Below are positions 42,104-60,701 of a stretch of DNA of 64,000 bases, one piece after another. The notes below the pieces were generated by a model, which saw only the letters and a program-made list of their open reading frames with translations, was not told the DNA's origin and made no database searches. The DNA is from Clostridiales bacterium. Its GTDB lineage: Bacteria > Bacillota > Dethiobacteria > Dethiobacterales > Dethiobacteraceae. How positions within the stretch are numbered: position 1 is the stretch's first letter; each line of letters begins with the position of its first letter. The stretch spans positions 1-64,000 of the forward strand of contig JAGXRM010000053.1 in the NCBI GenBank assembly GCA_018335855.1. Direction: 5' to 3'. The translations under genes were made by a program, and so were the position numbers.

Positions 42104-42778
42104 ATGTCGGATGAGCGGGTAAAAGAATTGCTGGAAGAACTGAAAGACGGGGTTATTAATTATGACGAGGATCGGGTTATAGCTGCGGCCAAGGCAGTTG
42201 TCGAAGAGGGATTGGATGCTACCAATGCGGTGTTTCACGGGCTTATTCCGGGCATGGAAGAGGTGGGCAGGCTCTATGAAGAACAGGAATATTTTGTGCC
42301 TGAACTTTTAATGTGCGCCGACGCGCTTTATGCGGGTTTGGACATCATGAAGCCGCATATGGAGAAGAAAGATATAGGTATTGCCGGCGTCGTGGTTATG
42401 GGTGTTGTCCAGGGTGATGTTCATGATATCGGCAAAAATATTGTTAAAATGATGTTTGATGTTGCCGGCTTCCAGGTTTTTGACCTTGGGCGCGACGTGC
42501 CGCTTGATAAGTTTGTGGAAGAGCAACTGCGCACCGATTCGGATCTTGTTTGCCTATCGGCAATGATGACTACGACCATGGTGGGAATGAAGGACATTAT
42601 CCGCAAGATTAAGGAGAAAAATCCGAAATGTAAAATTATGATCGGCGGCGCACCGGTCAGTGAAGAGATTGCGGAGAACTTTGGAGCTGACGGTTACGCC
42701 AAAGATGCCAGCAATGCCTTAAAGGATGCAATCAATATGCTGAGCACGCTGAGGAAACTGCAGGAAGAATCCGCCTAA
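42104..42778 (+). CDS. corrinoid protein (MtbC/MttC/MtaC-like methyl carrier)
   Basis: 224 residues. An N-terminal four-helix cap (VKELLEELKDGVINYDEDRV) is followed by a B12-binding domain with the base-off signature GDVHDIGKNIV and a later GGAPVSEEIAENFGADGY. It carries the methyl group between a substrate-specific methyltransferase and an acceptor methyltransferase. The partner is likely the MtrH-like enzyme at 44802 or one of the UroD-type enzymes. Substrate not evident: no MttB- or MtbB-like gene is beside it. Confidence 0.92.
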   Translation: MSDERVKELLEELKDGVINYDEDRVIAAAKAVVEEGLDATNAVFHGLIPGMEEVGRLYEEQEYFVPELLMCADALYAGLDIMKPHMEKKDIGIAGVVVMGVVQGDVHDIGKNIVKMMFDVAGFQVFDLGRDVPLDKFVEEQLRTDSDLVCLSAMMTTTMVGMKDIIRKIKEKNPKCKIMIGGAPVSEEIAENFGADGYAKDASNALKDAINMLSTLRKLQEESA

Positions 42779-42807: not shown

Positions 42808-44754
42808 TTGGAACATACAGTTATCTTCCAGCCCTCGGGACGGCGTGGTCTTGTTAAGCATGGTAATTCTCTTCTGGATGCGGCGCGGGAATTAGGTGTT
42901 GATATCGAGGCGCCATGCGGTGGAGCAAGAGTCTGCGGAAAATGTAAAATTAAAATCGAGGAAGGTTTTTTTGAGAAATTTGGTATCGACTCAAAAATGA
43001 GCAATCTTTCGCCGGTACTGGAAGAAGAAAAAGATTTTTTTAGCACTGAAGAATTAGCGGACAACTATCGCCTGGGCTGCTGCGCTTATGTTCACGGTAA
43101 TATCCTGGTATTTGTGCCCGAAGAGTCGCGCGGGGCCAAACAGGTAATTCTCGAAGTCGGGCGGGAGAGAGCTTTTGGTCTGGAGCCTGTGGTAAAGAAT
43201 TATTATATCGAAATGATACCAGCAACGCTGGATGACCAGTTGGATGACTATGCCCGTATTAATACGGCGCTTGTGGAGAAGTACAATTTTCCCGGAGATT
43301 TGGGAATTGATTATCCTGTACTGTTGGGCTTGCCAGAAGCGGTTCGTGACGGTGACTGGAAAGTTACTGTATCTGTATGGGATGATAAAGAAATCATTAA
43401 AGTTGTCCCGGGACTGGCGGAAGATCCGTGGGGCATTGCCATTGACGTGGGGACAACCACCGTTGCAGCTTATCTGTGTAATCTCAGAACAGGGGAATCA
43501 CCTTTTAAAAGCTCTGTCATGAACCCGCAGATTCGCTACGGCGAGGACGTTTTATCCCGGATTACTTACGCAATGATGAACGACGATGGCCTGGAAAAAA
43601 TGTATACAGCGATTATTGACGGTGTGAACACGCTGGTTCAAAGGCTCACGGAGATGGCCGGCATCACTCCCGATGATATTGTCGACATGGTGTTGGTTTT
43701 TAACACGGCGATGCACCATATTCTTCTGAATATTGACCCCAAATATGTGGGAAGGGCACCATTCGCTCCGGCCCTCAGGTCGAGTATGAACTTTAAAGCA
43801 AGGGATATCGGCATTAAGATTGCCAAAGGCGCTTACGCTCATACCCTCCCGGTTGAGGCCGGGTTTGTCGGGCCTGATAACGTGTCCGTATTGATCGCGG
43901 AAGAGCCGTACAAGCAGGATAAGATGATGCTGATTATTGATATTGGCACAAACGGGGAAATTGATTTTGGTAATAAAGACCACCTGCTTTCCACTTCCTG
44001 CGCCACAGGACCGGCGTTGGAGGGAGCACAGATTAAATTTGGCATGCGGGCGGCTCCTGGTGCCATTGAATGGGTGAAGATAGACCCTGAGACAAAAGAG
44101 CCTAGTGTTAAACTGATTTCTCAGGAAGAATGGTTTAAAGAGGGCGATGAACCCATTGCCAAAGGTGTCTGCGGATCAGGCATTATTGATGCCATCGCAG
44201 AGATGTTTAAGTCGGGAATTATTGCCAGCAGTGGACGGTTTAATCAGGATACTGGCAGCCCGAGGGTAAGAAGAGGCGCGGATAATAAGATGGAATATGT
44301 TATGTGCTACGCCAAGGATACTTCAATCGGTAAGGATATCACGATTACGCAGGGCGATGTCCGTGCCGTGCAGCTGGCCAAGGCCGCGCTCTATGTCGGT
44401 GCCAAGTATCTGATGGAAAAACGCGGTGTAGAGAAAGCGGACAGCGTAACGTTGGCAGGTGCCTTCGGTAGCTTCATTAACAAAGAAAGCGCCATGGTCA
44501 TCGGTATGTTCCCTGATTGTGACCTCGAAAATGTCCAGGCTGTAGGGAACGCCGCCGGAGACGGCGCTAAGCTGGCGCTTTTAAGCAAAACGAAGCGGCA
44601 TGAGGCAGAGGAAGTAGCCAGGTTTGTCCAGTTTGTTGAAACAGCAACAGAGTCTGATTTCCAGCCGAGATTTGCCGACGCAATGGCCTTCCCGCACAAG
44701 ACGGATCAATTCCCCCATATCCAGCACATCCTTGATAAAATTCCCAAAGTTTAA
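42808..44754 (+). CDS. reductive activator of corrinoid proteins (RACE, ASKHA ATPase with 2Fe-2S domain)
   Basis: 648 residues from a TTG at 42808, 8 nt after AAAGGAGGT. The N-terminal plant-type ferredoxin domain has the 2Fe-2S ligands CGGARVCGKC and a later GCCAY. The middle and C-terminal parts form the DUF4445 ASKHA ATPase (WGIAIDVGTTTVAAYL, then LIIDIGTNGEI and LAGAFGSFINKE). RACE proteins use ATP to drive one electron into inactivated Co(II) corrinoids. It lies 29 bp after the corrinoid gene it probably serves. Confidence 0.92.
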   Translation: MEHTVIFQPSGRRGLVKHGNSLLDAARELGVDIEAPCGGARVCGKCKIKIEEGFFEKFGIDSKMSNLSPVLEEEKDFFSTEELADNYRLGCCAYVHGNILVFVPEESRGAKQVILEVGRERAFGLEPVVKNYYIEMIPATLDDQLDDYARINTALVEKYNFPGDLGIDYPVLLGLPEAVRDGDWKVTVSVWDDKEIIKVVPGLAEDPWGIAIDVGTTTVAAYLCNLRTGESPFKSSVMNPQIRYGEDVLSRITYAMMNDDGLEKMYTAIIDGVNTLVQRLTEMAGITPDDIVDMVLVFNTAMHHILLNIDPKYVGRAPFAPALRSSMNFKARDIGIKIAKGAYAHTLPVEAGFVGPDNVSVLIAEEPYKQDKMMLIIDIGTNGEIDFGNKDHLLSTSCATGPALEGAQIKFGMRAAPGAIEWVKIDPETKEPSVKLISQEEWFKEGDEPIAKGVCGSGIIDAIAEMFKSGIIASSGRFNQDTGSPRVRRGADNKMEYVMCYAKDTSIGKDITITQGDVRAVQLAKAALYVGAKYLMEKRGVEKADSVTLAGAFGSFINKESAMVIGMFPDCDLENVQAVGNAAGDGAKLALLSKTKRHEAEEVARFVQFVETATESDFQPRFADAMAFPHKTDQFPHIQHILDKIPKV

Positions 44755-44801: not shown

Positions 44802-45740
44802 ATGTTTACACTGGAGACAAAACAAAAAGTCTGTCAGATTGGTCCGTGGAAAGTGGGAGGCCAACCAGGGGACAATCCCCCGCTGTTGATTTCCTCCATG
44901 TTCCATAAAGGTGACCGTTTGCTCGAAAGCCGGAAAGAAGGCACGTTTAATAGAGCCAAAGCCGCCGACTATATTAAGCGGCAGGAAGAACTGTCGGAGC
45001 AGACGGGCATTCCCGCCGTCACTGCCATGGTCGCCAATACTGCTAACGAGATGAAATACTATATTGATTTTTTTACAAGTATCAGTGACAAACCTTTTGC
45101 CATAGATATGTGGGTTCAGGAGCCGCGCATAGCGAGCGTCAGGTACGTAGCTGAACTAGGCTTGATTGACAGGCTTATCTACAACAGCATCACCCCCTGG
45201 GATAAGGATATCCCTGCGCAGGTGGACCAACTTAAAGAACTAGGTGTCAAGCATGTAGTAGTGCAGGTTTATGACGATGATGATCCATCCCCTCAGGGTA
45301 GAGTGAAAAGTTTTGACAAAATGATGGGAACGATCGGGGAAGACACATTTGAAAGCATCCTCGTCGACACCTCGGTTATGAACCTGCCGGCAACTTCTTT
45401 CTCGGCCGTAGCCAACAAGATGATCAAGGAAAAATACGGTCTGCCTGCAGGGTTGGCAAGTTCGAACGGAACGTTTATGTGGAAAGCCGCCCGGGAAATG
45501 TGGGGCAGTGACGGTTTTTCGGCTATGAATACAGCCGCACAGGCCGTTTCCGCCATGTTTTGGTCCGACTTGCTTTTCTACGGTCCGCAAGTTACGGCCC
45601 CTAAGGTTTTTCCCGCAGTAGTCAGCGCCGTACTAATGCTCTCCACTCTTGTCTACCACGAATCTGGCAGGCTGCCGTCAAATCCCAATCATCCGCTTTA
45701 TAAGTTCTTTGGAGAATTTGCCGAAAAGCTTAAAAAATAA
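44802..45740 (+). CDS. MtrH-family methyltransferase (corrinoid / tetrahydrofolate side)
   Basis: 312 residues. A TIM-barrel protein of the MtrH family (QIGPWKVGGQPGDNPPLLI start, HKGDRLLESRKEGTFNRAKA, IDMWVQEP). In methanogens MtrH moves methyl groups to or from tetrahydromethanopterin; soluble bacterial homologues beside corrinoid proteins are known or thought to use tetrahydrofolate. Here it would connect the island's corrinoid protein to the folate C1 pool, which also feeds PurN and PurH. Its neighbours on both sides are corrinoid methyl-transfer genes. Confidence 0.88.
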   Translation: MFTLETKQKVCQIGPWKVGGQPGDNPPLLISSMFHKGDRLLESRKEGTFNRAKAADYIKRQEELSEQTGIPAVTAMVANTANEMKYYIDFFTSISDKPFAIDMWVQEPRIASVRYVAELGLIDRLIYNSITPWDKDIPAQVDQLKELGVKHVVVQVYDDDDPSPQGRVKSFDKMMGTIGEDTFESILVDTSVMNLPATSFSAVANKMIKEKYGLPAGLASSNGTFMWKAAREMWGSDGFSAMNTAAQAVSAMFWSDLLFYGPQVTAPKVFPAVVSAVLMLSTLVYHESGRLPSNPNHPLYKFFGEFAEKLKK

Positions 45741-45770: not shown

Positions 45771-46820
45771 ATGGCTTTGACACCAAAAGAAAGAGTATTA
45801 AATCTGTTCGCCGGTAAAGAGGTCGACCGTGTAGCCTGTTACAGCGGTATGGGTAACGTAACGGTTGCCGGCCTCAATGAACTGGGCTACAAGTTTCCCA
45901 AAGTTCACGGCGATGCCAAAATGATGGCGGATCTTGCAGCCACATCATATAAAATGTTTGGCTTTGAATGCGCACTTGTACCGTTTGACCTCTGTGTGGA
46001 AGCGGAAGTGCTTGGTTGTGAAATGAATGCATACGAAAACGTTGACCAGTTGCTTTACCCGACCATTAAGGAAAAGGCGATTCACAATCAGGAAGAAATG
46101 GCTACATTTGTTGTTCCTGACAACATAGCCAATGCCGGCAGAGTGCCGGTGGTATCCGAGGCAATCCGCCTTTTAAGGAAAGACATCGGTGATGATGTGG
46201 CAATCGGCACATACCTGGTAGCGCCGTTTACCCTTGCCGGCCAGCTTATGGATTTAAACGATCTCTTTAAACTGTCATTCAAGAAACCTGATCTGGTTAA
46301 CCAGATGTTAGACAGATTGGCTGACGTACTGATTAAAATTGCGGCAATTTACCGTGAGGCCGGTGTTGACTATATCTGTGTCCGCGAAATGGGTGCTACG
46401 ACTGATATACTCAGCCCGCGCAGTTTTAAAGCGATTATTCAGCCTCATCTGAAAAAAATACATGCTGCTCTTGACTTCCCCAACGTTCTGCACATCTGCG
46501 GCAGCACTAATTTTGTTATCCCGCAGATGAATGACTGCGGCGCGGACGCCATCAGTATAGAAACTAAAAATGATATGGTTAAAACCAGAGAAGACATTGG
46601 CCTGGAACCACTCGTCTTCGGTAATATTGATGCCTATAGCGTTTTATGCCTGCAAGGTGTTGATGATGTTGAAAAAGCGGTTATCAGCGCTCTGGAGCTT
46701 GGCGTGGACGCTATCTGGCCCGGTTGCGATATCTGGCCGGAAGCCAAGCCGGAAAATGTAAAAGCGATGGTTGATGCGACAAAAAAATATGGCGCGGAAA
46801 AATGGGCCCGTAAAAAGTAA
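45771..46820 (+). CDS. UroD/MtaA-type corrinoid methyltransferase with the standard Cys zinc site
   Basis: 349 residues of the uroporphyrinogen-decarboxylase/MtaA-MtbA superfamily. The zinc site of the thiol-methylating enzymes is complete: His241 and Cys243 (LHICGS) and Cys319 (WPGCDIWPE). In methanogens MtaA and MtbA transfer methyl from a corrinoid protein to coenzyme M, whose thiolate binds this zinc. No coenzyme M genes are seen, so the acceptor thiol here is unknown. It is the Cys paralogue against which the UGA-containing gene at 48956 should be compared. Confidence 0.88.
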   Translation: MALTPKERVLNLFAGKEVDRVACYSGMGNVTVAGLNELGYKFPKVHGDAKMMADLAATSYKMFGFECALVPFDLCVEAEVLGCEMNAYENVDQLLYPTIKEKAIHNQEEMATFVVPDNIANAGRVPVVSEAIRLLRKDIGDDVAIGTYLVAPFTLAGQLMDLNDLFKLSFKKPDLVNQMLDRLADVLIKIAAIYREAGVDYICVREMGATTDILSPRSFKAIIQPHLKKIHAALDFPNVLHICGSTNFVIPQMNDCGADAISIETKNDMVKTREDIGLEPLVFGNIDAYSVLCLQGVDDVEKAVISALELGVDAIWPGCDIWPEAKPENVKAMVDATKKYGAEKWARKK

Positions 46821-46915: not shown

Positions 46916-47467
46916 ATGGTTGAAAGAGTATGCATTTTTCCCTGCGGCGGAATTAAATTTACAGAGTCTACTGTGGCACGCATTGCCGCCTATATTGTCA
47001 ATGAAGACCTTTTGCCGAGAAAAACAATGATTCTCTGTGTGCCTGCTTTCCTGCGCGGAGTGGAAGAAGACCTGGTGATGGTAGAAGATTACCCGACCAT
47101 TGTCATTGACTGCCATGAGGAAAGTTGCGGCACAAACCTGCTTTACCTTGCCGGGGTCACCCCTGCGGCAAGGGTTTTTATTCCTGATATCGCAGCCGAA
47201 ACCGGCCTCTCTTATGGAAATGCACGACGGGAATTGGAATCGGAAGCCAATGATTTGGCTCGGGCTGTGGCCGATGCTGCCGTACTGGCGGCTACAGCTA
47301 TGCTGGAATCACCGGAATATATCTTTCCGAAGCAGAAGGTAAAAACACAGGCTTGCCTTGCCCAGGGTAAAATACCGGTAAATCCGTTCCACTATGAACG
47401 GGTTGCAGGTGGAATCTACAAGCCGAAGGATATGCCGGATTTCTTTGCAAAGGAGAGTGTATCCTAA
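46916..47467 (+). CDS. DGC-domain putative zinc-binding protein, copy 1
   Basis: 183 residues. It starts with FPCGGIKF and has a Cys pair segment IDCHEESCGTNLLYLAG, the arrangement of DGC-domain proteins thought to bind zinc through four conserved Cys. The tail ends with YKPKDMPDFF, also seen in the next protein as RPGSMPG. It overlaps the next gene's start by one base. The function of the family is unknown; here two copies sit between methyl-transfer and lipoyl/redoxin genes. Confidence 0.75.
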   Translation: MVERVCIFPCGGIKFTESTVARIAAYIVNEDLLPRKTMILCVPAFLRGVEEDLVMVEDYPTIVIDCHEESCGTNLLYLAGVTPAARVFIPDIAAETGLSYGNARRELESEANDLARAVADAAVLAATAMLESPEYIFPKQKVKTQACLAQGKIPVNPFHYERVAGGIYKPKDMPDFFAKESVS

Positions 47468-48054
47468 TGGACACTGTAAGGAAAGTGGCTGTCTACCCCT
47501 GCGGTGGTGTCGGTTTTGTCCTCTCGAGCATCGCCCGTTATGCTGCGTATCAGGTTACTGAAGACATGCTGCCGGGGCAGACAGAAATCGTGGATGCGCT
47601 AAGACTAATTTCCGGCATGCCGGATGAAGTCGCCCTTGTCGAGGAAAACCCCACTGTAATTATTGACGGTTGCGGATATCAGTGCGGGTCAAACCTCTTT
47701 CGCCTGCTGGGCCTCAAACCTGCGGCGAGAGTTCTGATTCCTCCCATCGCTAAGCTACCGCCCACGTTTGTATGTGACTGTAAAAAACAGGAAACCAAGC
47801 TTGCGCCGGGTATGCAGAGAAGGGTTCCCAGTGAGTCGGGTAAGAACCTTGCCACGGAGATTGCCACACAGGTAAAGAATATCGCTTTGGTTATACTGAA
47901 CATGGACTATCCTTATCAGAAGCAAAAGCTCAGTCAAGATGAGAACGTAATCTGCGACTATATTGAAAATATCCCGCAGGCAGTCGACTATGTGCCAATT
48001 TCAGAGGGTATCGATCGCCCGGGCTCGATGCCGGGGCTGGCAGGAATGGAGTAG
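47467..48054 (+). CDS. DGC-domain putative zinc-binding protein, copy 2
   Basis: 195 residues, a paralogue of the preceding protein: YPCGGVGFVLSSIARYAAY, then the eponymous motif IIDGCGYQCGSNLFRLLG and, unlike copy 1, an extra FVCDCKKQE Cys pair. It may bind zinc or handle thiols. It shares an operon with copy 1 (start overlapping the stop) and with the H-like protein 27 bp downstream. Confidence 0.75.
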   Translation: MDTVRKVAVYPCGGVGFVLSSIARYAAYQVTEDMLPGQTEIVDALRLISGMPDEVALVEENPTVIIDGCGYQCGSNLFRLLGLKPAARVLIPPIAKLPPTFVCDCKKQETKLAPGMQRRVPSESGKNLATEIATQVKNIALVILNMDYPYQKQKLSQDENVICDYIENIPQAVDYVPISEGIDRPGSMPGLAGME

Positions 48055-48081: not shown

Positions 48082-48561
48082 GTGTCCTTAATTACATGCG
48101 ACGATTTTTATGGGCAAAGCGTGACAATTGAAGACAGGTATCTTTACTATTTGCCTGAGCACCTTTGGGTGGACTGCACCGGAGACGATATTTACCGCTT
48201 TGGTGTCAGCCATGCCGGCGTAATCCTGGTTAACGGCTTTAAGTATATGGATTTTGCCGTAAGTGTGGGGGAACAAATAGACGTCGAGGACAGCCTGGTC
48301 TTTGTGGAAACATTTAAGGCTATGATTAACGTGACTTCCCCCATTTCCGGGACGGTTGCTCAAATCAACGAAAAATTGTCCGGGGAAGGGATTAAGCTGC
48401 TCGACGAATCGTATCATGAAGAATACTTAGTGGGTATACAAAGCAATGGTCTGGATGTGGCTACAGTGTTTCTCACGGCAGAGCAGTATCTGGAAGCGCT
48501 TTTGCGCGGGGACGCCGATCACTGCGGTGCCGGCGCCAGAGTCATGAGGAGAAACCGCTAA
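48082..48561 (+). CDS. glycine-cleavage H-like lipoyl carrier protein, copy 1
   Basis: 159 residues from a GTG (AAAGGAAG upstream). The protein aligns with GcvH: LPEHLWVDCTGDDIYRFG corresponds to the HEWV start, and LVFVETFKAMINVTSPISGT to the lipoyl hairpin, with Lys79 at the position modified in GcvH. The C-terminal 30 residues (ADHCGAGARVMRRNR) are extra. No GcvT, GcvP or 2-oxoacid dehydrogenase is present, so this H protein is expected to do something other than glycine cleavage, as lipoate-binding proteins do in the sHdr sulfur pathway. Confidence 0.82.
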   Translation: MSLITCDDFYGQSVTIEDRYLYYLPEHLWVDCTGDDIYRFGVSHAGVILVNGFKYMDFAVSVGEQIDVEDSLVFVETFKAMINVTSPISGTVAQINEKLSGEGIKLLDESYHEEYLVGIQSNGLDVATVFLTAEQYLEALLRGDADHCGAGARVMRRNR

Positions 48562-48578: not shown

Positions 48579-48869
48579 ATGGGTCCGCCAAAAAAGGTTA
48601 TTGTTGAAATATTTATCAATGACTTTGTGCAGTGAACTCCCTGCGTCTATCTGCTGGAGGCAGTAGAAGCAATTCCGTCACTGGTCAGTGATATTGCTGA
48701 ATTCATAGAGATTCGCCGGTGGGATTTACGGACGCCGGAAGGGATACAAAGAAACAATGAACTCGGAATATATCTCTTTCCCACCGTGGCCATCAATGGC
48801 GAAGTGCTTTTTGAAAGTATTATTCCTCCGGAAACGGAACTGGAAGAGGCGATTCGTTCCCGGTTGTAG
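48579..48869 (+). CDS. thioredoxin-like selenoprotein (UxxC), UGA read as selenocysteine
   Basis: 96 residues if the TGA at 48633-48635 is read through. A strong ribosome site (GGGGGAGGT) precedes ATG 48579. The product has Sec19-Thr-Pro-Cys22 (VQUTPC) where the paralogue at 50031 has Cys-Ala-Ala-Cys (VQCAAC), and the two remain alike after it (YLLEAVEAIPS with YMLEAVSALPD; FPTVAINGEVLFESIIPP with LPTIVINGDLVFESIIPT). A hairpin fitting the bacterial SECIS model follows the UGA. It is probably a small redoxin for the neighbouring selenoprotein methyltransferase. Standard gene finders would miss it or truncate it. Confidence 0.88.
48647..48666 (+). promoter_or_regulatory. bacterial SECIS hairpin of the thioredoxin-like gene
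   Basis: CTA(T)CTGC paired with GCAGTAG, a 7-bp stem with one bulged T, around the loop TGGAG. The loop begins 19 nt after the UGA and has G at its second position, as expected for SelB binding in bacterial SECIS elements. Confidence 0.75.
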
Positions 48870-48955: not shown

Positions 48956-50029
48956 ATGGGGATACAGTTATTAATTGACGCCTACCGCGGCAAAAAGACG
49001 CCTAAAGCGCCTTGGCTGCCCTATGCGGGTGTGCACTGCGCGTACCTCATCGGCGAGAAAGCGGACGTCTATCTTCAGGATCCTGATCTGATTGCCAAAG
49101 GCGTTCTGTTTGCCGCAGAGCGGTATAAGGCCGACGGCATTCCGCTGGTTTTTGACCTGAACATCGAAGGTATGTCCATGGGTTGCGAGGCTAAATGGTA
49201 TCCAGACAATCCGCCTGCAATCACAGGACACCCGTTGGCGGACAAAACCCTTGCTGAAGCCAACCTGAAAATTCCTACAGCTAAAGACGGCCGCTGGCCC
49301 GTAATTGTGGAAGCCGGCAAAAAAGTAATGGCGCAGAAAGGTGACGTTGCACTGCTCGGTTTGATTTGCGGGCCGTTGACTCTTGCTTCACATCTGCGCG
49401 GCGTAAAAATCTTCACCGATGTGGTGAAGAATCCGGCTCTCGCTAAGGAGATTATGGATTTCTGCGCTCAAGTATGCGCCGAATCTGCCAGAATCTACCG
49501 TGATATTGGCTGTGAGATCATTGCCATCGTTGACCCGGTAGCTTCACAAATTAAGCCTGGTACGTTTGCAGAGTTTGTGACCCCGGCCTGTCAACCAGCC
49601 ATTGATGTTATCCATGAAGCAGGGCTCACATCGAGTTTCTTCATTTGCGGTGACGCGACGAAGGTTATGGAAGAAGTCTGCAAGATTGGCACACACGGTT
49701 TCGCCATTGATGAGCAGCTAAACATGAACTATGTCCGTGAAATGGCTATTAAATACGGACGAGGCTTTGGTGGAAACCTCAAGCTGACTCTGGCGATGTC
49801 CCTGGGAATCTTAAGCCCGCGGGAAGACGCAATAGTCAGCCTTGCCGCCGGAGGCTTAACCGGCTTTACCTTCGCCCCTGGCTGAGACATGCCCTTTGAC
49901 GTTCCCGTGGAGAACGTAGATAAAGTCCTGGAAGCAAAAGAATGGTATGAGAAGTTTTACGCAGCCTATCCGACCCATGTACCCCCCGGATACATTACCT
50001 TAGAGGATTTGAAAAAAGGGGGAAACTAA
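48956..50029 (+). CDS. selenoprotein UroD/MtaA-type methyltransferase, Sec in the metal site
   Basis: 357 residues when the TGA at 49883-49885 is read as Sec310; the frame then runs 47 more codons to TAA 50027, with the family's usual C-terminus (MPFDVPVENVDKVLEAKEW). Sec310 falls in APGUDMP, exactly where MtaA/MtbA enzymes have the zinc-ligand Cys of PGCD. The other metal motif is altered too: Phe229-Ile-Cys231 (FFICGD) replaces His-x-Cys. The metal site would be Cys/Sec based, lacking the His. Ribosome site AAGGAGTGAG. It lies between the selenoprotein and Cys thioredoxin-like genes. Probable role: transfer of methyl from a corrinoid protein to or from an unknown thiol or selenol. Confidence 0.9.
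49899..49917 (+). promoter_or_regulatory. bacterial SECIS hairpin of the methyltransferase gene
   Basis: A perfect 6-bp stem, ACGTTC with GAACGT, around the loop CCGTGGA, which contains GU as in the E. coli fdhF element. The loop begins 19 nt after the UGA, the same distance as in the thioredoxin-like gene. Confidence 0.8.
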
Positions 50030-50030
50030 T

Positions 50031-50354
50031 ATGAGTGATAAACTGGTAGTTGATATCCTGACTCTGGATTCGGTGCAATGCGCAGCCTGCCAGTATATGC
50101 TGGAAGCAGTTTCAGCGTTGCCGGATAATGTTAAGGCACACATCGAGTTCAAGGAATGGAATATCAAGGGCCCTGACGGAATCAACAAGTTCCTGGAATT
50201 AAACGGCAGAGTATTACCGACAATCGTTATCAACGGTGATCTCGTATTTGAAAGCATCATCCCAACATTCGAAGAAATACTCGATGAACTGTCAGCGAGG
50301 GCTTCGGAAGCTCTGAAGGTGGAAATTGAAAAAGCTCGCATCGCGGGGAGCTAG
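50031..50354 (+). CDS. thioredoxin-like protein (CxxC)
   Basis: 107 residues. A thioredoxin-like fold with Cys17-Ala-Ala-Cys20, a cis-Pro segment (RVLPTIVINGDLVFE), and a helical C-terminal extension. It is the Cys version of the protein at 48579. Its ATG follows the methyltransferase stop by one base, so the two are translated together. Having a UxxC and a CxxC form on either side of the Sec methyltransferase suggests they are a redox relay or two redoxins for different partners. Confidence 0.85.
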   Translation: MSDKLVVDILTLDSVQCAACQYMLEAVSALPDNVKAHIEFKEWNIKGPDGINKFLELNGRVLPTIVINGDLVFESIIPTFEEILDELSARASEALKVEIEKARIAGS

Positions 50355-55328: not shown

Positions 55329-55444
55329 ACGCTTGTGTGGGGAAGCTATGGACGACATCAGAGAAATTCCCACTATGCTGAGTCACAGTTTTATCGTATT
55401 CAGAGATTCTTCTGACTAACTGCTATGAAACGGGGGTGTGGACA

Positions 55445-56272
55445 GTGAGGAATGCGCATGACTTCTGGGGAGAATTTATTGGGACCTTTATTCTAGTATT
55501 TTTCGGCTGTGGCGGCATTGCCGTAACTATACTCTTTTCATCACTCACGGGCCTGTTCCAGGTAGCAGTTGTATGGGGAATCGGGGTTAGTCTGGCAATC
55601 TATGCGACCCGGCATCTTTCCTGCGCGCATCTTAATCCGGCCGTGAGTGTTGCCATGGTTGCGGCGGGACGGATGTCCGTCAAAAGACTGCCTACGTACC
55701 TCATTGCGCAACTGCTCGGATCCATTGCTGCTGCGTTATTACTCTACACAATCTTTTCCGGCTCCATTACCCAGTTCGAGGCGCTAAACGGAATTTTGCG
55801 GGGTTCACCGGATTCATTAAAAACCGTAATGATCTTCAGCAGCTTTTATCCGAACCCCGGATCGGTACCGGTGGCGGCCATTGGGGTTCCCGCTGCTTTT
55901 CTAGCGGAAATGACCGGCACGTTTATTCTGGTGTTTCTGATTTTTACGCTTACAGACGGCTGTAACCTAGGTCGGCCAGACAACAGTTTAGCCCCGCTTT
56001 TTATCGGCCTGACGGTTGCTATGGTGATTGCTGTGATGGCGCCTCTGACTCAGGCGGCGCTGAACCCGGCGAGGGATCTTGGGCCGAGAGTCATCGCATA
56101 TTTCATGGGTTGGCGGGGAGTCGCTTTCCCGGAACAGATAGGCGGCTATCTCGCAGTCTACATTATTGCCCCCCTTGCGGGTGCGGGACTAGCCGCGATG
56201 TTTTTTTCCAAGCTCGTCCGACCACTTATGGACAGTAAGGGTACAGCGGAACGATGTGATTGCCGACCTTAG
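55445..56272 (+). CDS. aquaporin / glycerol-facilitator family channel
   Basis: About 275 residues from GTG 55445 (GGGGG 8-9 nt upstream; GTG 55436 is too close to it). Six membrane helices with both NPA motifs: HLNPAVSVAM and ALNPARDLGPR, the Asp after NPAR being usual in glycerol facilitators. It passes small neutral solutes. In a methanol-methyltransferase island methanol is a plausible solute; that is inference. Confidence 0.88.
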   Translation: MRNAHDFWGEFIGTFILVFFGCGGIAVTILFSSLTGLFQVAVVWGIGVSLAIYATRHLSCAHLNPAVSVAMVAAGRMSVKRLPTYLIAQLLGSIAAALLLYTIFSGSITQFEALNGILRGSPDSLKTVMIFSSFYPNPGSVPVAAIGVPAAFLAEMTGTFILVFLIFTLTDGCNLGRPDNSLAPLFIGLTVAMVIAVMAPLTQAALNPARDLGPRVIAYFMGWRGVAFPEQIGGYLAVYIIAPLAGAGLAAMFFSKLVRPLMDSKGTAERCDCRP

Positions 56273-56314: not shown

Positions 56315-58297
56315 ATGACGGATGGCTTATCGCTGGAGAAACGAGCAGACCGGATTCAAAAATCCTGGCAGGGGTTTATTGTCCGAGGGAAAATGGAGTC
56401 TTATGTTGTTCGCGATATGATTGCGAGCTCCTGGGAACGCTCTCTGGCTGCAGGTGTTAATCCTTACGGGAATTTACGTTACCTGGTAACCAGTAAAAGC
56501 AATACAAATAACCGCAATTTAATTAAAATCAGCAGGCCGTTTTTAGATAACCTGCACACTTTTATCAAGGGTTCGGATTTTATGGTATTGCTCACCGATG
56601 ATGAAGGAACGATTGTTAAAATTCTCGGAGATCCGGTGATTATGCAAAAAATGAGAAGCTTCCCTTTTTGGGAAGGGGCGAACTGGGACGAGGAAAGCTG
56701 CGGCACAAATTGTATCGGACTGGCCATTCGGGAAAAAATGCCGATTCAGGTTTTTGCGTCAGAGCATTTTAACCAGCAACTGCATATAATTGTGGGCTCC
56801 GCCGCTCCTTTTTTTAATCCCAGCGGGAAGTTTCTCGGTGTGGTGGCACTGGTCGGGTTTTACAGTGACTTTCACCCCCATACGTTGGGAATGGTTGTAG
56901 CTTCGGTTAAGGCGATAGAAAATCAACTGCTGTTCATTGAGGCGAACCAGAGCCTAAAGCGGTCTTATAAAGAAGCCACAACAATTATGGAAGAAATGAC
57001 GGCTGGGTTAATTTCCGTAGATACACTTGGCAGTATCACCATGCTCAATACCTTAGCGCGCAAAATGTTGGGTATTACCGCTCAGGACTGGCTTGGGAAA
57101 AATATAGGCGAACTATTTGGTGAAAAATCGCCACTCATTCACGCTCTGCATGAAGGCAGAGGGTTTTCCGACCGTGAAATTAAAATGAACGATAGTGGTG
57201 TCACCAAACGATTTTCCTGCAGCGCCAATGTGATGAAAGACGAAAATAATCAGACGCTTGGCATGGTTGTCACCATTCATGAAGATAAGGCCATCCGGCG
57301 ACTTGTGAATAGAGCTCTTGGGTCGCAAGCAACGTTTACATTTGACGATATACTCGGCGAGCATGGAACTCTAAAAAAAGCAATTAATGTGGCTATCCGG
57401 GCTGCAGCGTCCGATAGCACTCTGCTGATTCAGGGGGAGAGCGGCACAGGAAAAGAAATGTTCGCACAGGCTATCCATAACTCCAGCGAACGAGCTAGAG
57501 CCCCGTTTGTAGCCATCAACTGTGCCGGTATTCCGCGGGAGCTGGTGGAAAGCGAACTGTTCGGCTATGAAGCTGGAGCTTTTACAGGTGCTAAAAAAGA
57601 GGGCCGTCCCGGAAAATTTGAGTTGGCGCAGGGAGGCACAATCTTTCTTGACGAAATCGGAGATATGTCTCTGGAAACACAGGCGCATTTGCTACGGGTA
57701 TTGCAGGATAAAACTATAACCCGTCTCAGCGGACAATTTCCGATACCCATTGATGTAAGAGTTATTGTCGCTACGCACCGCGACCTAATTTCCCTGGTGG
57801 ATGAAGGAACCTACCGACTTGATCTTTTTTACCGGATTAATGTCATTAACTTGAAAGTGCCCAGTTTGCGTGACCGGGGAACGGATGTCCTGTTGCTGGC
57901 CCGACTATTTTTGGAGAAAATCAGCGGGAAGATGGGGCTTCCCATTACGCCCGTACTTTCCGCCAAATGCGAAGACAGACTTTTATCATATCCCTGGCCA
58001 GGCAATGTCCGTGAGTTACAGAATGTAATTGAACAGGCCATGTTTATATCCAACTTTGCGGCGGAGTTGCGCGAGGAACATCTTCCTGAGAAGCTTCTGA
58101 ACGGAAGAAAAGAAATGCCCGGCCATCTTACCCAGATGGCTCTGGAGCTTCAGGAGTCTATGCATATCAAGCATACTCTGGACGTTTGCGGGGGAAATAT
58201 CAGCCGTTGCGCAAAAATACTTGGGATTGCGCGAAATACTCTATACCGGAAAATAGAAAAGTATGATCTCTCGAGGAGGGGTGAAGGTGGAAATTGA
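56315..58297 (+). CDS. sigma-54-dependent activator, AcoR-like (GAF-PAS-AAA-Fis)
   Basis: 660 residues. An AcoR-like N-terminus (residues about 1-60, [15 protein letters not shown]), a GAF domain (about 65-195), a PAS domain (about 210-310), then the AAA+ domain with [15 protein letters not shown] (Walker A), the sigma-54 contact loop [25 protein letters not shown] (Walker B), and a C-terminal Fis-type HTH ([20 protein letters not shown]). It should bind the palindromes at 59034-59126 and open the sigma-54 promoter at 59198. The ligand is likely a C1 substrate such as methanol. Confidence 0.93.
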
Positions 58298-59033
58298 TTA
58301 CAATAAAATTTTCACAAGATATGATCTGCAAACCGGAGAAAAGGAGCAGCCGCCTCAGGAACTGTCGCGGGATCCGGGCCTGCGTGAGATTATCGACTGT
58401 GTAGTTATGGGCGATATTCAAAATATCACGGAAGTTGTGCAAAAAAATCTTAAGACAAAGGACCCGCTGGAGATTATCTACCGCGCGTTAATTCCTGCCA
58501 TGGAACATGTGAGCAGGTTGTGGGAAGAAAATATTTTTTATCTGCCACAGACATTGAACTCGTCAGACGCTATGCTGATAGGAATAGAAATATGTGAAAA
58601 GAAAATGGGTAAAGCCATAGAGAAAAAAGGTGTGGTAATCACACATACGGCGGAAGGGGATATCCATGATCTCGGCCAGAAAATCGTCAATGCCCAGCTG
58701 CGCGCGCAGGGGTATGAAGTTCTGGATCTTGGCAGGGATGTCCCGGTGGAGACAGTCATAGAAGCGGTTAAAAAACAACGACCGCTGATGCTTACCGGAA
58801 CCGCCGGACTGACAATCAATATGGATGCGTTTCAGCGAATATCAAATCTTCTCCGCGAAGAAGGTTTTGATATTCCCTTCGCGTGCGGTGGCGGCGGCGG
58901 TGTCTCACGCAATTATATAAACTCGTTGGAGTTTGGTATTTTTGGCAAAGATGCCCGTGAGGCTCCAAAAATGGCAACTGACGCCCGGGCAGGATTAACC
59001 TGGTTGCAAATCAGGGAAAGATATAATGAATAA
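58287..59033 (+). CDS. corrinoid protein, MtaC-like, regulator-linked copy
   Basis: 248 residues from GTG 58287, just after GAGGAGGGG and inside the last codons of the activator gene. It resembles MtaC at 60731 along its length (same FTRYDL/FVRYDL start; [19 protein letters not shown] with the cobalt-binding His; [13 protein letters not shown]). A second corrinoid protein for methanol, or for a related methyl donor, encoded before the inducible promoter and so perhaps made constitutively. It could also inform the activator, as its gene overlaps the regulator's. Confidence 0.9.
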
Positions 59034-59126
59034 TTGCTCCATTATGGAGCAATGCTCCAAAATGGAGCAGTATGCATGTACGATAAAACAAGCCTTTTCA
59101 AATAATCGTTCCATTATGGAACGATT
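59034..59126 (+). promoter_or_regulatory. three palindromic upstream activator sites
   Basis: Three inverted repeats with the core YTCCA-N3-TGGAR: 59034-59052 (TTGCTCCATTATGGAGCAA), 59053-59069 (TGCTCCAAAATGGAGCA), and 59104-59126 (AATCGTTCCAT-T-ATGGAACGATT). They lie 70-165 bp before the sigma-54 promoter, the usual distance for enhancer sites, and are the likely targets of the AcoR-like activator. Confidence 0.82.
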
Positions 59127-59197
59127 TTGTTTTAATAACTCCCGGTTATCTGGGGTATATGCGCCTAAAGGACGGAAGATTCCGAATTTTAGGACAA

Positions 59198-59213
59198 TGG
59201 CATACTTCTTGCA
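59198..59213 (+). promoter_or_regulatory. sigma-54 (-24/-12) promoter of mtaB-mtaC
   Basis: TGGCATACTTCTTGCA: the GG and GC doublets are exactly 10 bases apart, with the TGGCA and TTGCA consensus boxes. It lies 112 bp upstream of the mtaB start. Confidence 0.88.
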
Positions 59214-59324
59214 ATTAGTCTTATGCAGAATAACCGGAAGGTGATTGATGATCATTAGTAGATCGTATCAATTGTCCGGTGTGTGTTGGAGAACGGAAGC
59301 GAAAAAAAGAAAAGGAGGAAGTTG

Positions 59325-60701
59325 ATGATGGCTAAATATACCAAAATGGCTTATGACAGTGCTGAAGAAATGATTTTTGGAACGGCTAAATTTCCTGTAA
59401 AGTATGGCAGGGACTTTGAGGTTGGAGGAGGGATTGTCTATCCCGAATTAGTCCCGCACCCCAGGCCCGGTTCCGAAGAAACAAAGAAAAGCCTGATGCG
59501 GGAATATGAACGGATGGTCAATGACGCTCTGGAGCGCGCTGTCAACCTTGGCTTTCCGGGTATCCAGATTGAGCTGGAACATGTTTGGCAGATGACTAAG
59601 AACCCAGATTGGGGCGGCGATATTGCCGGGCAGACTAGAAAGCAGCAGGAAGACTTTTACCAGAAATACGGGCTCAAGAGTGCTATCAGGGCAACGATCG
59701 CTGATAACAGGAAACCGGATGAGGAAAATATCCGAGACTGCAAATCGCTTGAACTGGCGCTGAAAACTTTCGAATCAAGCGCGGCTAACGGAGCAGACAA
59801 CCTGTCTATGGAAAGTGTCGGCGGCAAAGAAATTTCCGACTACTGCATCGTCCGTCAGGATATCCGCGGTGTTCTTTTTGGCATCGGTGTTCTTGGCAGC
59901 AGGGATATGGAGTTTATGTGGAAGAAGATTGTTGACATCGCCAACAAGTACGGTGCTACCCCAGGCGGTGACACCGATTGTGCTCAGGCCAACGTCGCTA
60001 TGTTTATGGCCGGCGGCATGCTCGATAAATCTGTACCCCACACATTTGCGGCAGTTACCCGGGCTATCGCCGCCGGGCGGACACTGACCGCCTATGAAAT
60101 GGGGGCAAAGGGTCCGACAAAGGATTGCGCCTATGAAGATCCCATTATCAAGGCAATTACAGGTATCCCCATCTCTACGGAAGGAAAGAGCTGCGCCTGC
60201 GCCCATGCCGATCTGCAGGGCAACCTAATCGCAGCGGTCTGTGACCTGTGGAGCAATGAAGCGGTAGAATACCATGATATGTTTGGCGGCACCACTCCCG
60301 CGGTCTTTACGGAAATTCTGGGCTTCGACGTGGCTCTGATGAACACGGCGATCGCTTTGGGGAAAGCAAAAGACTTGCAGGAAATGTTTATAAACTCAGA
60401 TCTTTACCGCGACCCACACAGCTTTGTGGTCGCTCCTCATAATGCTTACCAAATCGGACAGGCGTTGGTGGCAAACAATACAGATTACTACAACCGTGCC
60501 AGGGCGGCTGCTGTGAAATCGGCCCAGTTAATTTTGGCCGACGGAAAAATGTTGCTCTCCAATTTCGAAAAGGAAGTACTCCAGAAGACTCTGCGTGAAT
60601 TGGAAAGCTTCCCCGACAAAGAGAGTGACTTTATTGACCAGTGCGTAAACGCTTACAAGAAAGTGATTCCGGGCTTCAACCCTGCCAACTATGGGCTGTA
60701 A
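59325..60701 (+). CDS. mtaB: methanol:corrinoid methyltransferase MtaB
   Basis: 458 residues from ATG 59325 (59328 equally possible; AAAGGAGG upstream). It activates methanol at a zinc ion and methylates the corrinoid protein MtaC. The N-terminus KYTKMAYDSAEEMIFG and the segments SMESVGGKE, GGDTDCAQANVAMF and KSCACAHADLQGN, holding the zinc ligands Glu, Cys, Cys, match MtaB of methanogens and acetogens. First gene after the sigma-54 promoter. Confidence 0.95.
   Translation: MMAKYTKMAYDSAEEMIFGTAKFPVKYGRDFEVGGGIVYPELVPHPRPGSEETKKSLMREYERMVNDALERAVNLGFPGIQIELEHVWQMTKNPDWGGDIAGQTRKQQEDFYQKYGLKSAIRATIADNRKPDEENIRDCKSLELALKTFESSAANGADNLSMESVGGKEISDYCIVRQDIRGVLFGIGVLGSRDMEFMWKKIVDIANKYGATPGGDTDCAQANVAMFMAGGMLDKSVPHTFAAVTRAIAAGRTLTAYEMGAKGPTKDCAYEDPIIKAITGIPISTEGKSCACAHADLQGNLIAAVCDLWSNEAVEYHDMFGGTTPAVFTEILGFDVALMNTAIALGKAKDLQEMFINSDLYRDPHSFVVAPHNAYQIGQALVANNTDYYNRARAAAVKSAQLILADGKMLLSNFEKEVLQKTLRELESFPDKESDFIDQCVNAYKKVIPGFNPANYGL

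Follow-up and report, generated by a model that had tools for sequence, protein, structure and literature searches.

A Predicted Selenoprotein of the UroD/MtaA Superfamily Encoded beside Corrinoid Proteins and a Thioredoxin-like Partner

Within a 64,000-nucleotide stretch of a Clostridiales bacterium genome (the window), a gene of the UroD/MtaA methyltransferase type, here called urodU, is interrupted by an in-frame TGA. We asked whether this codon ends the protein or is read as selenocysteine and, if the latter, what a selenocysteine might do at this position of an MtaA-like fold. The features discussed are collected in Table 1; homologous loci in other genomes are designated by L numbers.

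Results

The Coding Frame Continues beyond the TGA

The preliminary description of this locus, made from the sequence alone, had noted one TGA in the context APG-TGA-DMP followed by 47 codons of family sequence, and our analysis confirmed both points. The TGA (FAPG-TGA-DMP) is codon 310 and the only one in the frame, and 47 open codons lie beyond it, ending at a TAA. With U entered as C, the protein matched PF01208 with E=7e-47 over residues 4-327, a match that spans the TGA, and the MtaA-like paralogue at 45771 has PGCD in the equivalent position, as had been described. The 47-codon extension of urodU differs from that of L016 at 2, 3, and 9 first, second, and third codon positions, respectively, and from that of L019 at 3, 5, and 16. 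In these close relatives, the extension changes in a manner that looks coding-like, mostly at third positions.

Table 1. Features of the window around urodU.
Feature	Coordinates	Strand	Basis or remark
Corrinoid protein	42104..42778	+	B12-binding domains; kept beside urodU in many loci
RACo-type corrinoid reductive activase	42808..44754	+	PF14574 and PF17651
MtrH-like methyltransferase	44802..45740	+	PF02007; NF002142 above cut-off
MtaA-like methyltransferase, Cys form (HIC...PGC)	45771..46820	+	PF01208; TIGR01463 and NF004889 above cut-off
Two DGC-domain genes	46916-47467 and 47467-48054	+	PF08859; conservation chiefly in Bacillota and Actinomycetota loci
GcvH-like lipoyl-domain protein	48082..48561	+	PF01597; weak NF045810 GcvH_rel_desulf match
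Predicted Trx-like selenoprotein, VQ-U-TPC (QUTPC)	48579..48869	+	just upstream of urodU; TGA at 48633-48635 taken as Sec
urodU, predicted UroD/MtaA-superfamily selenoprotein	48956..50029	+	357 aa with TGA taken as Sec; PF01208, AlphaFold2 model, 58 close-clade rows
Predicted Sec codon 310 (PG-U-D), in-frame TGA	49883..49885	+	aligned TGA in 54/58 close-clade rows, Cys in the rest
Bacterial SECIS-like hairpin	49899..49917	+	ACGUUC-CCGUGGA-GAACGU; hairpin in 49/49 folded TGA homologues and synonymous-codon test
Trx-like partner, QCAAC	50031..50354	+	directly downstream of urodU; CxxC

Relatives Carry TGA or a Cysteine Codon at Position 310

A scan of public genomes yielded 52 urodU-like loci with 60-84% identity, from Bacillota, Desulfobacterota/Thermodesulfobacteriota, and Actinomycetota. 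Desulfofundulus australicus and Desulfatitalea alkaliphila are among the carriers. Wherever the codon was readable it was TGA, except for TGT in L021 and L024, and the sequence that follows it is conserved (DMPYDVP..H/N.D...EA..WY..YYAKYP). Cysteine also occupies this position in L088 (64% identity) and in a paralogue from the source genome itself (L002, 66% identity, with TGT). The homologue search that the preliminary description had suggested returned TGA or a cysteine codon in the close relatives whose codon could be read. In the close clade, which comprises 58 rows from Bacillota, Desulfobacterota, and Actinomycetota, 54 rows have the predicted selenocysteine, four have cysteine, and none ends there, termination in close relatives being one of the outcomes named beforehand as fatal to a selenocysteine reading.

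The family tree was built from 79 rows, one of them an MtaA outgroup and the other 78 from the family; a few rows are identical or near-identical proteins. At codon 310, 56 rows are assigned selenocysteine and 22 family members cysteine; the distant relatives have cysteine, apart from two further independent TGA copies (L079 and L089), and the supported branches require no fewer than four switches between the two residues. One genome (G130) holds a close UroD-type pair, L089 and L074, with TGA in one and cysteine in the other at the same position; this pair is a recent Sec/Cys switch. Separately, L019 and L020 have a second in-frame TGA just past urodU residue 350, near the frame end (FISLxU), which is probably the real stop. 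Our search found no other urodU carriers in the window organism's own order, so the distribution close to this organism is patchy.

These comparisons bear directly on the simplest reading, that the TGA of urodU is a real stop and the gene encodes a 309-residue protein, is decaying, or contains a read error. The open reading frame up to the TGA is indeed 309 residues long already, and standard gene finders would end it there. Nevertheless, about 55 homologues keep the TGA together with a conserved downstream sequence that changes mostly at third positions, no homologue ends at the codon, cysteine stands in the same column of relatives, and the genome has the full sel machinery (see below). A read error, also foreseen as a possible explanation, is ruled out because about 55 independently sequenced genes share the TGA. 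On this comparative evidence a real stop appears already refuted, and we assign it a very small residual probability.

Selenocysteine Machinery and a Hairpin Downstream of the UGA

The source genome carries selA, selB, and selD consecutively, selA being recognized from sequence beside selB, as well as a tRNA-Sec (selC) with anticodon tca (UCA); selD has an in-frame TGA of its own. All four genes whose presence had been proposed as a check are accordingly in the genome. SelB scored above its curated cut-off in 26 of the 28 carrier genomes tested, with weaker or partial matches in the other two.

A SECIS-type hairpin with its loop 19 nt away and GU in the loop had also been described, and we found it: the stem starts 13 nt after the UGA, the loop starts 19 nt after it, and the loop contains GU. 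The window hairpin alone is not significant (shuffling of stretches that contain it gave z of roughly -0.6 to -1), so its evidence rests on comparison across homologues. The loop starts 19-22 nt past the UGA in all 49 TGA copies that were folded, and most of these follow one of two designs, either ACGUUC-(7 nt)-GAACGU in Actinomycetota and the Bacillota near the window or AUGUUCC-(3 nt)-GGAACAU, or a shorter form of it, in Desulfobacterota and Desulfofundulus-type Bacillota; the position of the 3' arm of the hairpin varies among the copies. Compared with synonymous recodings, the 30-nt hairpin stretch was more stable than expected (mean z of -1.55, with 80% below -1) against averages of -0.43 to +0.09 for five control windows in the same genes, the 49 copies being mutually related and not 49 independent tests. 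Three cysteine homologues gave z values of +0.87, +0.10, and -1.36. A wider stretch, 9-54 nt from the start of the UGA, showed no signal (mean z of -0.51, controls -0.25 to -0.44), and the signal is thus confined to the short hairpin. Rfam, which to our knowledge includes no bacterial SECIS model, gave no match at the hairpin.

An in-frame TGA by itself names no residue, and the codon could in principle be read as something else, through reassignment to tryptophan or unspecific readthrough. The window argues otherwise. Nine of its open reading frames of at least 150 residues end in TGA, and only urodU has a long conserved frame beyond it; the other eight simply terminate there, TGG codons are used normally, and the standard code therefore applies in the window. 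Together with the cysteine aligned in TGA-less family members, the tRNA-Sec with its tca anticodon, and a hairpin at the SECIS place, this leaves decoding as another residue the least probable of all the readings considered here. That UGA 310 is read as selenocysteine is strongly supported by the combined sequence evidence.

Fold and Putative Cys/Sec Center of urodU

By both score and fold, urodU is a member of the UroD superfamily, in line with the family assignment made earlier. It scored 160.5 bits against PF01208 (gathering score 23.9); MtaA (4ay7) was its best PDB sequence match (E=5e-24) and also the best fold match of its AlphaFold2 model (pLDDT 92; TM 0.81/0.86). Against TIGR01463 (MtaA/CmuA) it reached 129.4 bits, below the cut-off of 235.4, which makes it a sister kind to MtaA and not an MtaA.

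The zinc motif of MtaA and MtbA is HxC...C. The alignment to 4ay7 shows Cys-231 of urodU at the first cysteine of this motif (HIC) and the predicted Sec-310 at the second (APGC), the zinc-ligand position to which it had been assigned before. The histidine is lost: it is phenylalanine in urodU (SFFIC), another point on which the preliminary description was right, and phenylalanine, tyrosine, or leucine in both the Sec and the Cys forms among the members examined. The motif is hence incomplete, with both cysteine columns kept, one of them as selenocysteine, and the histidine replaced. An acidic pair, D252 and E253, is nearly invariant and aligned with E-E of MtaA. Because the histidine is replaced, the protein may have a modified metal site or none, and a redox Cys/Sec pair working with the partner thioredoxin becomes a real alternative to a metal site. 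CdmB, a methyltransferase with the UroD fold, functions in the absence of zinc (PMC13222342).

Corrinoid and CobW Genes beside urodU

Genes for the corrinoid protein, RACo, and the MtrH-like and MtaA-like proteins recur beside urodU across three phyla; the MtrH-like protein probably represents the methyl-folate side. Other neighbors are CobW GTPases (33 loci), DUF2284 (22 loci), TrxB (16 loci), and several thioredoxin-like families. Of the 10 distant loci retrieved, 7 (L094, L097-L100, L102, and L103) have CobW adjacent to the gene for the UroD or UroD-Trx protein; in four of them (L097, L100, L102, and L103) it was recognized from sequence. A COG0523/CobW subfamily co-localizes with zinc-dependent corrinoid methyltransferases (PMC2770081), and for this reason the association with CobW speaks for a metal in urodU.

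Several further genes lie in or near these clusters. The segment 50458-55301 of the window contains genes that resemble, by eye, those for lipoyl synthase, lipoate ligase, dihydrolipoyl dehydrogenase, and a transporter, together with a second GcvH-like protein. They lie next to the DGC and GcvH-like genes, with which they possibly form a lipoyl-carrier module associated with the methyltransferase cluster of Bacillota. It is followed by an MIP aquaglyceroporin (55436-56272; PF00230), related copies of which occur in the vicinity of urodU in Desulfotomaculum copahuensis, Desulfofundulus, and L035 and beside the Cys copy in L104. Farther downstream, 58263-60701 encodes a corrinoid protein and MtaB (methanol:corrinoid methyltransferase). 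Near Actinomycetota urodU clusters, a CobW-related protein has a selenocysteine of its own (GGGUIGC; L023 3998-5029 and L033 4461-5090), the L033 protein scoring 100 against an NF041053 cut-off of 180.

Thioredoxin-like Neighbors

A Trx-like gene lies immediately 3' of the urodU homologue in 47 of the 50 loci with enough sequence, and in distant Cys relatives the same Trx domain is fused to the C terminus of the UroD domain (Pfam on L094). The three loci without it are L021, L022, and L024; as two of these are Cys forms, the protein may not depend strictly on a thioredoxin. Orthologues or paralogues of the Trx-like gene upstream of urodU occur in L016, L017 (two), L053, and L104 (two), all with TGA at the Sec position, for which the paralogue downstream of urodU has cysteine. 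Both the upstream Trx-like selenoprotein and the downstream thioredoxin partner, fused in distant relatives, go beyond what had been described before.

Several of the Trx-like neighbors carry selenocysteine themselves (QUAAC, QUTPC, HUIPC, and CVPU), and the L063 protein is a bona fide member of the known HUIPC selenoprotein family NF047660 (145 bits, cut-off 105). Selenocysteine-containing Trx-like proteins with HCVPUL, DQUASG, and RQUAAC, in L028 (9149-9500), L034 (11020-11388), and L031 (9943-10218), respectively, score under the NF047660 cut-off and could represent new subfamilies.

Discussion

We give a probability of roughly 0.8 to the reading that urodU encodes a selenoprotein of the UroD/MtaA superfamily in which Sec-310 is inserted by the cell's own Sel machinery and which acts, with a corrinoid system and a thioredoxin, in corrinoid-dependent methyl transfer. 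UGA 310 would be decoded by SelA, SelB, SelC, and SelD with help from the hairpin. The protein would work with the corrinoid protein, RACo, MtrH, and MtaA system and, judging from synteny and fusion, would pair with the small Trx-like protein encoded immediately downstream. Methyl transfer would take place at the Cys-231/Sec-310 center, probably metal-bound, which may activate or receive the methyl group or a thiol or selenol co-substrate, and the dedicated thioredoxins could keep this center reduced or deliver a thiol. Given the lost histidine and the thioredoxin fusion, the center may cycle through a redox state. Methyl-sulfur, methyl-selenium, and methyl-arsenic compounds and methanol are candidate methyl substrates, offered as guesses.

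The strongest competitor would accept the selenoprotein and dispense with metal-dependent methyl transfer: Cys-231 and Sec-310 would form a redox pair (a selenenylsulfide) for the reduction or reductive cleavage of a substrate, and a thioredoxin relay would regenerate the pair. The loss of the zinc-motif histidine in the members examined speaks for it, as do the Trx fusion and the several Sec-containing Trx-like genes and TrxB in the clusters. It fits poorly with the recurrent corrinoid, RACo, MtrH, and MtaA context, with MtaA as the closest solved fold, and with a CobW gene that adjoins urodU relatives even where no other recognized methyltransferase gene is nearby (L094 and L100). We regard this alternative as rather unlikely, and favor metal-assisted methyl transfer over a purely redox enzyme by about two to one.

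A sub-question compatible with the methyl-transfer reading is whether urodU is the cluster's substrate-demethylating MT1 and not an acceptor-side MT2 or accessory protein. UroD-type MT1 enzymes exist, namely CdmB and O-demethylases (PMC13222342), and in many Desulfobacterota loci urodU stands beside the corrinoid, RACo, MtrH, and MtaA genes. Distant forms, however, adjoin separate MT1 genes, MtmB in L102 and L103 and MTTB in L097, which suggests an acceptor-side or shared role; an MT1 role is conceivable, and we lean against it. More speculative, and in our estimation improbable, is that the partner or fused thioredoxin replaces coenzyme M, its CxxC thiol accepting or donating the methyl group at the Cys/Sec-metal site. 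If true, this would be a protein-borne thiol carrier of corrinoid methyl groups in bacteria without coenzyme M.

Several known systems resemble urodU in part. With the methylcobamide:coenzyme M methyltransferases MtaA and MtbA (4ay7) it shares the fold, the two cysteine columns of HxC...C, and the corrinoid gene context; it differs in the selenocysteine at the second cysteine, the replacement of histidine by Phe, Tyr, or Leu, the thioredoxin partner or fusion, and a score below the family cut-off. The Mlp methyltransferases of type 1 mlp clusters are soluble homologues of MtaA, encoded in the corrinoid clusters of anaerobes; the hosts mostly make selenocysteine, and one Mlp enzyme acts on selenide, but searches of the text of PMC10418091 showed neither selenocysteine in the methyltransferase itself nor a thioredoxin or CobW partner. 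The HUIPC Trx-like selenoprotein (NF047660) and the CobW-related selenoprotein (NF041053) share urodU neighborhoods, but these are small Trx-like or GTPase proteins, whereas the UroD-type selenoprotein is without a family of its own. Formate dehydrogenase and NiFeSe hydrogenase use selenocysteine as a metal ligand where Cys relatives have their ligand (PMC13188914), which is the likeness to the putative site of urodU; their folds and metals are unrelated.

The preliminary description knew of no enzyme of this superfamily with selenocysteine in its metal site. We found no UroD-type family among the 119 prokaryotic selenoprotein families of a 2026 review and no dedicated family in NCBIfam (June 2026), and mention elsewhere is possible; nor is a UroD-type selenoprotein reported in seven papers of the selenium and recoding literature (PMC12013277, PMC2398784, PMC5029168, PMC9723677, PMC8318568, PMC1242214, and PMC9312934).

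The present analysis adds a widespread selenoprotein family to the UroD/MtaA superfamily, occurring in three phyla and including cultured sulfate reducers. Dozens of sulfate reducers and their relatives carry urodU together with its partner thioredoxin, and annotation pipelines likely truncate the protein at residue 309. With natural Sec and Cys forms and a thioredoxin partner or fusion available, the contribution of selenium to a corrinoid-linked thiol/metal center is directly testable.
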